In this document: positions 12,882-33,769 of the stretch, in pieces
Layout of the letters: each line of letters starts with the position of its first letter
Position numbering within the stretch: the stretch's first letter is position 1
Assembly (NCBI GenBank): GCA_903893975.1
Contig: CAITOL010000036.1
Span: 1-41,807, forward strand
Reading direction: 5' to 3'
DNA from: an uncultured Rhodospirillales bacterium
GTDB lineage: Bacteria > Pseudomonadota > Alphaproteobacteria > Acetobacterales > Acetobacteraceae
DNA: 41,807 nt
Program-made: the position numbers and the translations under genes
The notes under the pieces: generated by a model
What the model was told of the DNA's origin: nothing
The model's input: the letters and a program-made list of their open reading frames with translations, nothing else
The model's database searches: none

Positions 12882-12896
12882 GCTTGCAGCGGTCGG
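12882..12896 (+). promoter_or_regulatory. 15-bp upstream element shared with the paralogue at 33731
   Basis: GCTTGCAGCGGTCGG is identical to 33755-33769 (minus strand). In both places it ends exactly 23 bp before the ATG of a member of the same protein family. Here TTGCAG within it doubles as a -35-like hexamer. Identity plus identical spacing suggests a shared binding site or a conserved promoter part. Confidence 0.6.
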
Positions 12897-12912
12897 GATA
12901 CGTTTTTATAAC
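12884..12912 (+). promoter_or_regulatory. Sigma-70-like promoter, probably giving a leaderless mRNA
   Basis: TTGCAG (12884-12889), a 17-bp spacer and TATAAC (12907-12912). The ATG of the next gene is at 12920, only 7 bp beyond the -10 box, where transcription would start. No Shine-Dalgarno sequence is present. Leaderless initiation is the simple reading. Confidence 0.5.
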
Positions 12913-12919
12913 TAACTAA

Positions 12920-13525
12920 ATGACCGAAGCCATCCCCGTATTGCGCGTGCAGGCGACCGCCCCGGAGATGGTGCGGCGGTTGGGGTTGATTGTGGGCGGG
13001 CTGGCGGCGGTGATTGCGCGGCGGTTTTTGCGTGACCCGAAATTTGGCGCGCTGGTGGCGCCGCTGTGGGGCTGGTTGAACCGGACGGTGCAGCGGGTTG
13101 GGCGGGCGCCGGTGGGGGCGCCTGTGCGGGTGCGTGCGCCGGTTGCGCCGCGTGTGGCGCCGGATGATGCGGCGGGGCGGGCGGTGCGGCCACGGCTGCG
13201 GCTGCCGACGGGGCGTGGCTGGCTGGTGCAGGCGTTGGGCTGGGAGGCGGCGGGCTATGGCAGCCAGTTGCAGGCGCTGCTGGCCGAGCCGGAGATGCAG
13301 GCTTTGCTGGACGCGGTGCCGGCGGTTGGCCGGGCGTTGCGGCCATTGGGGCGAATGCTCGGGGTGCAGGTGGGGCCGGCGCGGGTGAAACCGCCGGCAG
13401 CGCCGAAGCCGCGCGCGGTGCGGATACGGCGGCCGCGTGCCAAGTTGGTGCGGCCGGGCGATCCGTTGGCCTGGAGCCCTGGGCCGATCCCGTCATCGTG
13501 GTGGCCGGAGAAAAAACGCAGCTGA
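12920..13525 (+). CDS. Unknown-function protein, paralogue A of a two-member family
   Basis: 201 aa, very basic, not a family I recognise. Residues 17-37 form a hydrophobic or amphipathic helix ending RRFLRDP, followed by LVAPLW (45-50). A Pro/Val/Arg-rich linker runs to about 95. A conserved core at 98-149 contains GRGWLVQALGWEAAGYGSQL, PEMQALL, and RPLGRMLG. The tail is Pro/Lys/Arg-rich. The protein at 33105-33731 has the same layout and strong identity in the core and N-terminal helix (RFLR-x-P, PLW, GRGWLV, LG-x-EAAG-x-GSQLQA, RP-x-x-x-MLG). The N-terminal helix may anchor it in the inner membrane with the basic domain in the cytoplasm. Function unknown. Confidence 0.75.
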   Translation: MTEAIPVLRVQATAPEMVRRLGLIVGGLAAVIARRFLRDPKFGALVAPLWGWLNRTVQRVGRAPVGAPVRVRAPVAPRVAPDDAAGRAVRPRLRLPTGRGWLVQALGWEAAGYGSQLQALLAEPEMQALLDAVPAVGRALRPLGRMLGVQVGPARVKPPAAPKPRAVRIRRPRAKLVRPGDPLAWSPGPIPSSWWPEKKRS

Positions 13526-13681
13526 GGTGGTGGGGTGGTTGTTTGTGCTAAATGTTGCGTTATCGTAATATATAGGTATTTGTATGGCATTCGACGGTAT
13601 CGGGTCTGGCTTGCTTTTTCGGCGGCGAGCCATTCATAGTCTAAACCAGTGGTTTTGGTGGAAACTTCCGAGGTTTGGTAA

Positions 13682-33042: not shown

Positions 33043-33069
33043 CGATATCAGCAATATATATCGATATCG
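33043..33069. promoter_or_regulatory. AT-rich palindromic patch upstream of the FAH gene
   Basis: Two GATATC sites (33044-33049, 33063-33068) and the pair CGATAT...ATATCG lie in an AT-rich stretch about 61-87 bp upstream of the FAH ATG. It sits where a promoter or operator of that gene would be. The function is inferred only from position and symmetry. Confidence 0.3.
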
Positions 33070-33104
33070 GAACAAAAAGGACACGCAAAAGGCCAGCTTC
33101 AAGC

Positions 33105-33754: not shown

Positions 33755-33769
33755 CCGACCGCTGCAAGC
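33755..33769 (-). promoter_or_regulatory. 15-bp upstream element shared with the paralogue at 12920
   Basis: On the minus strand this reads GCTTGCAGCGGTCGG, identical to 12882-12896, and is again separated from the ATG (33731) by exactly 23 bp. The sequences between element and start differ: an SD (GAGGA) here, a -10 box (TATAAC) there. Conservation of the element and spacing but not of the gap argues for function rather than recent duplication alone. Confidence 0.6.

Follow-up and report, generated by a model that had tools for sequence, protein, structure and literature searches.

The two loci that share a 15-bp upstream sequence in the stretch of DNA analysed here (all 41,807 nucleotides of it, hereafter the window) very probably belong to a dispersed orphan gene family of the Acetobacteraceae, whose members appear to be autonomous units of promoter, open reading frame and 3' element. 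The number of copies, their dispersal, the presence and conservation of two cis elements at fixed positions, the constraint on the coding sequence and the restriction of the 3' element to the family are all well supported. In the model presented here, each unit of ~0.7 kb would be self-contained for expression, with a promoter, an ORF and a 3' dyad: a sigma-70-like promoter would place the transcription start (+1) on or beside the ATG and so produce a leaderless mRNA, which would be translated into a very basic helical protein of 163-247 aa, and the family-private dyad that follows the stop codon by ~24 nt would be recognised by a sequence-specific protein.

The shared 15-mer and the family promoter

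The sequence-only reading had described an identical 15-mer at identical spacing in front of two paralogous genes, and identity, spacing and coordinates were all confirmed: GCTTGCAGCGGTCGG lies at 12882-12896 (+) and 33755-33769 (-), both times 23 bp from the ATG (at 12920 for copy 1 and 33731 for copy 2). The encoded proteins, P0001 and P0002, are homologous and of the layout it described, with 43% identity in the family alignment, and the two copies are not mutually nearest paralogues. Their neighbours are ordinary metabolic and transport genes that suggest no common pathway. The features of both copies are collected in Table 1.

Table 1. Features of the two family copies in the window
Feature	Coordinates	Strand	Remarks
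Copy 1, -35-like hexamer TTGCAG	12884..12889	+	at -36 to -31 of the ATG, inside the 15-mer
Copy 1, -10-like hexamer TATAAC	12907..12912	+	17 bp past the -35 hexamer, 7 bp before the ATG
Copy 1, family gene P0001, 201 aa	12920..13525	+	homology; predicted helical, mean pLDDT 83
Copy 1, family-private 3' element GTTGCGTTATCGTAATA	13554..13570	+	
Copy 2, -35-like hexamer TTGCAG	33762..33767	-	at -36 to -31 of the ATG
Copy 2, -10 position, GAGGAA	33739..33744	-	TAGGAA in copy L070
Copy 2, family gene P0002, 208 aa	33105..33731	-	homology
Copy 2, family-private 3' element GTTCCGATATCGATATA	33057..33073	-	

The window's genome (G000) is a 4.2-Mb draft assembly of an uncultured member of the Acetobacteraceae, in 202 contigs, and the exact 15-mer occurs in it twice, both times in the window. 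With up to one mismatch allowed there are four matches genome-wide, against three for a reversed-pattern control, and the 15-mer was not found in any of the four congeners searched; on these two grounds it was rejected as a genome-wide motif. When 35 family copies from the window's genome were aligned on their start codons, a common GCTTGCA(GCGG) emerged at -38 to -28, together with an AT-rich GTTAnTnAAAATaAC immediately 5' of the ATG. Eleven of the 15 letters, GCTTGCAGCGG, are the commonest letters at -38 to -28 in this alignment, and the final four (TCGG) fall in the otherwise variable promoter spacer. As about six family copies have this 11-mer, it would be unremarkable for two of them to match at four further spacer letters, and the 15-mer is, as we read the alignment, the -35 region of the family promoter plus spacer letters that match by chance. 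The upstream element is nonetheless real and promoter-proximal, as its TTGCAG corresponds to the -35 box at the family-wide position. That the 15 bp are a true operator of just these two genes is very improbable: their exact identity and spacing, and their occurrence nowhere else in the genome, would suit such a site, but the pair are not nearest paralogues of one another, 11 of the letters are simply those of the family consensus, conservation within the promoter is lowest in the spacer, and what relatives retain is the -35 box at its spacing and not the 15-mer. Of the common regulation that had been proposed, the idea itself is plausible for the copies in general, given their shared promoter architecture; the 15-mer as its unit did not hold.

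The promoter itself was characterised on copies from four genomes (n = 109 or 113, depending on the statistic). TTG starts at -36 in 75 of 109 copies and within 1 nt of that position in 99 (counted by hand), compared with 2.1% at control offsets. The -10-like hexamer occupies -13 to -8, with an A at -12 in 88 of 113 copies, so that the geometry reads TTGC(A/G), 17 bp, AT-rich -10 hexamer, 7 bp, ATG. The same arrangement is seen in several copies from other genera. At copy 1 a strict consensus scan found no sigma-70 consensus, as neither TTGCAG nor TATAAC is a perfect match, and the poor -10 sequence of copy 2, GAGGAA, possibly weakens its promoter. Judged on sequence geometry, this fits a leaderless sigma-70-type unit (hexamers 16-18 bp apart) and would put +1 at the start codon, and Shine-Dalgarno-like tetramers are present in only 7 of 113 copies. 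The position of the -10 hexamer and the near-absence of Shine-Dalgarno sequences make the transcripts look leaderless, and we infer that the copies are transcribed from the family promoter and translated without a leader.

Basic helical proteins under coding constraint

The ORFs encode 163-247 aa, and nearly all copies are open over that span. The proteins are, as had been suggested, very basic with an N-terminal helix: the mean pI is 11.7 and the mean net charge +16, and the structural model (mean pLDDT 83) has helices at residues 10-36 and 40-62, four short ones within 101-147, and a basic tail of low confidence. The earlier failure to recognise a Pfam family agrees with our profile searches, as no significant match was obtained in Pfam, NCBIfam, PHROGs, PADLOC or PDB sequences. 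One of 35 members matched PF07704 with an E-value of 0.0034, which we took as chance. Structural comparison, in which a Ferritin/Dps-like four-helix bundle was considered, listed weak, generic helical bundles, with VIA-align Z-scores of at most 7.9 and Foldseek E-values above 3, which is within the range of generic helical matches. A strongly basic helical protein would most likely bind nucleic acid or a membrane surface, and we infer that it acts at an anionic surface, be this DNA, RNA or the inner membrane.

Twelve positional pairs between the congeners G001 and G004, some of which match at one flank only and may not be strict orthologues, gave dN/dS values of 0.32-0.59 at protein identities of 50-79%, indicating real but fast-evolving proteins. 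Two more pairs, between G001 and the window's species, gave 0.79 and 1.13, each with one matched flank and possibly not orthologous. Across the same 12 pairs, identity is 87% in the core of the 3' element, 72% in the -35 box and 70% in the 15 nt next to the start, whereas the spacer reaches 42% and the DNA upstream of the unit 29%, the last figure arising partly from indels as the comparisons were ungapped. Since the cis elements are conserved where neighbouring DNA has diverged, they appear to be maintained. These observations bear on the notion that the family consists of functionless repeats in decay, for which one might cite their fast divergence and the internal stop codons found in one copy of the window's genome and a few in others; with nearly all reading frames open over 163-247 codons, dN/dS of 0.32-0.59 in the 12 pairs and both cis elements retained, we regard it as scarcely credible.

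A family-private element downstream of the stop codon

The most distinctive feature of the family, more so than the upstream element and absent from the sequence-only reading, lies on the other side of the gene. TTTTGTTACGATATCGTAATTA follows nearly every family stop codon by ~24 nt; more generally, nearly every copy has some version of TTTTGTTACGATATCGnAATA on the sense side ~24-27 nt after the stop. The element is a dyad, TTACGATATCGTAA, in a conserved context of TTTTGCG, ~8 nt and TTTGTTACGATATCGTAATTA, and is recognisable in 128 of 140 copies; that of copy 1 is divergent. The context is asymmetric, as 110 of 114 distinct elements have a G 17 nt to the left of their centre.

Searching the window's genome with the pattern GTTNCGATATCGNAATA at up to two mismatches gave 41 matches, nearly all of which are at family copies or are the reverse reading of the palindrome; the five remaining ones, in unrelated coding sequence, were dismissed as chance matches and not as extra elements. 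A stricter pattern matched 11-60 times in each of five genomes of the genus and 13, 11, 7 and 2 times in the family-bearing genomes G022, G008, G031 and G024, compared with 0-1 times in all other genomes, so that the matches are concentrated in genomes with the family. G014 and G027 have 3-4 family copies each, yet no match to the strict pattern. The element is also predictive: when 20 sites with the element but no family copy listed nearby were inspected, 18 proved to follow closely on the end of a family member, in several cases a very divergent one, and the 3' element thereby led to members absent from the first protein search. Both failures are in G008, where the element looks to be in the opposite orientation and the piece of sequence fetched barely covers the gene's side.

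What might read such an element? An RNA signal, such as a stem-loop or a pairing site through which the 3' UTR would govern how mRNA ends form or how stable the mRNA is, would account for the fixed placement on the sense side, ~24-27 nt past the stop codon, and for the asymmetric context with its nearly invariant G, but the arms show no covariation beyond chance at nine of the ten innermost pairs and a weak signal at the central pair, there is no G+C-rich stem, and the element has no Rfam match in the window. The lack of covariation favours a DNA site over an RNA stem, and an RNA hairpin was rejected on this ground and for want of an Rfam match; we place an RNA signal third and consider it improbable. 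The element was also considered as a promoter in either direction, and the hexamer spacing, judged by eye, is wrong. It would seem to be recognised, as DNA, by a sequence-specific protein. Our preferred candidate for that protein, at a little short of an even chance, is a common regulator or a 3'-end/termination factor; second, and a good deal more doubtful, is the possibility that the element is an end used in the copying of the unit. Whichever it may be, the 3' element (TATTTTGTTACGATATCGTAATTAATA) offers a sharp handle with which to pull out the putative binding protein.

Dispersal, turnover and relation to known systems

The family had been taken to be small. When the assembly that contains the window was searched at the protein level, 44 rows were returned, ~43 of them convincing, over many contigs; each of four congeners has 30-53 copies, some occur in several other genera of Acetobacteraceae, and by profile search the family turned up in 24 of the 102 sampled genera, often with at least 22 copies. 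These copy counts are uncertain to the extent that many copies in the draft assemblies sit at contig ends. Public sequence matches come from MAGs of Acetobacteraceae, apart from a single weak one in a Myxococcales MAG; one of the Acetobacteraceae MAGs, CALQTN02, bears the label Asaia bogorensis, which looks doubtful. Searches for plasmid, phage and viral homologues found none. The copies are dispersed singly and limited to one lineage, as is characteristic of a multigene family. The family is apparently undescribed so far, as the open-access literature searched (that library only) held nothing relevant to the family, the lineage or the letters of the element.

In G001, G002 and G004 many copies occupy the same positions, and the copies of these three genomes interleave in the tree. 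Those of the window's species cluster apart (6 label changes in a quick tree, compared with 31 in shuffles) and are mostly at positions different from those of the congeners' copies. Species-specific sets, together with positions common to close congeners, indicate that the family turns over between species and, as far as the sequences tell, is largely stable between close relatives. The window's genome also contains a recently amplified subfamily (L044, L045, L054, L064, L078, L079, L080 and L081), roughly 80-95% identical in comparable pairs; six of its eight copies are at contig ends, and their number in the draft is therefore probably too low or the result of collapsed repeats.

Individual loci offer a more local view. 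For 17 copies of G001 whose flanks were sought in G002, the matches were mostly one-sided, due to contig breaks. At the L129 locus, where fragments resembling a glutathione S-transferase gene lie directly upstream (~260 bp) of the G001 copy, G002 has neither the copy nor the adjoining GST-like sequence, and this is not a clean insertion. The positional pair L122 (G001)/L196 (G002) has distant flanks that are mostly 80-98% identical around proteins that are only 69% identical, and its near flanks fall to 40-65%, as from fast local evolution or replacement by another copy. In the G001/G002 pairs L135/L209 and L130/L205, similarity continues through the 3' element and fades over the ~30 bp beyond it, as might follow from an insertion, loss or rearrangement of DNA close by. 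Dispersed repeats of the types GGATTGCTTCGCAAGGGCTCGCAATGACG and CCCTCACCCCGGCCCTCTCCC are frequent near the 3' element downstream of many copies (for example L046, L060, L078-L080, L102, L111 and L114) and match widely in G002 as well. L186 (G024:C126) and L237 (G001:C12) may contain tandem or fused partial second copies in or beside one reading frame. At the second window locus, congeners have no family copy where the comparison can be made, the neighbours being rearranged or at contig ends.

It is tempting to speculate that the unit is a mobile gene cassette, copied or moved by a trans-acting recombinase through its private 3' element, with the basic protein as cargo or accessory. The dispersal of copies with fixed 5' and 3' limits, a 3' element that travels with the family gene only, the recently amplified subfamily and species-specific sets, the absence of copies from the second window locus in comparable congeners, and the two syntenic pairs that lose similarity just past the 3' element are all consistent with this. 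Against it, inverted sequence is no commoner between the 5' and 3' borders than between shuffled partners, which gives no sign of terminal inverted repeats, and flank repeats are at chance level for borders known to within ~20 bp, which gives none of target-site duplications; neither the second window locus nor the L129 locus is a clean empty site; many positions are common to G001, G002 and G004; the search for homologues on plasmids, phages and viruses was negative; and the cis elements keep fixed positions, as expression signals would. On balance we consider a mobile cassette unlikely, and rate no higher the related idea that an enzyme recognising the 3' site spread promoter-ORF-site units to dozens of chromosomal positions across many Acetobacteraceae and that the basic proteins are products or helpers of this system. 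Were the 3' element nevertheless a recombination end, it would represent a new kind of gene-dispersal system; as a site for a regulator or for 3'-end formation, it would mark a single-factor regulon spread over the chromosome. Dozens of constrained, dispersed paralogues per genome, nearly all with one leaderless-type promoter and an apparent private 3' DNA site, are unusual in bacteria.

Several known systems share some of these properties. Integron gene cassettes, which are found in arrays next to an integrase and have an attC site with the core GTTRRRY, likewise consist of one small gene with a conserved site shortly after it. However, the copies here form no arrays but are dispersed singly on many contigs, each has a promoter of its own, and GTTACGATATCG, the consensus on the 3' side, does not, judged by eye, fit the attC core. 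Xer-dependent pdif modules are also small gene units with a dyad site of similar length, but the family has a single site per unit, on the 3' side, and no plasmid copies were found. In leaderless sigma-70-type units the -35/-10 geometry puts +1 on the ATG; the family resembles them in the predicted +1 and in having hardly any Shine-Dalgarno sequences, and differs in that the geometry, as predicted from sequence, is a common property of one amplified family. The mycobacterial PE/PPE genes are an example of a lineage-specific expanded bacterial multigene family, and families of this type similarly comprise dozens of dispersed, divergent paralogues per genome, within one lineage and mostly of unknown function. 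No sequence relation to them was found, and what sets the Acetobacteraceae family apart is that nearly every copy has the promoter geometry and the private 3' element.
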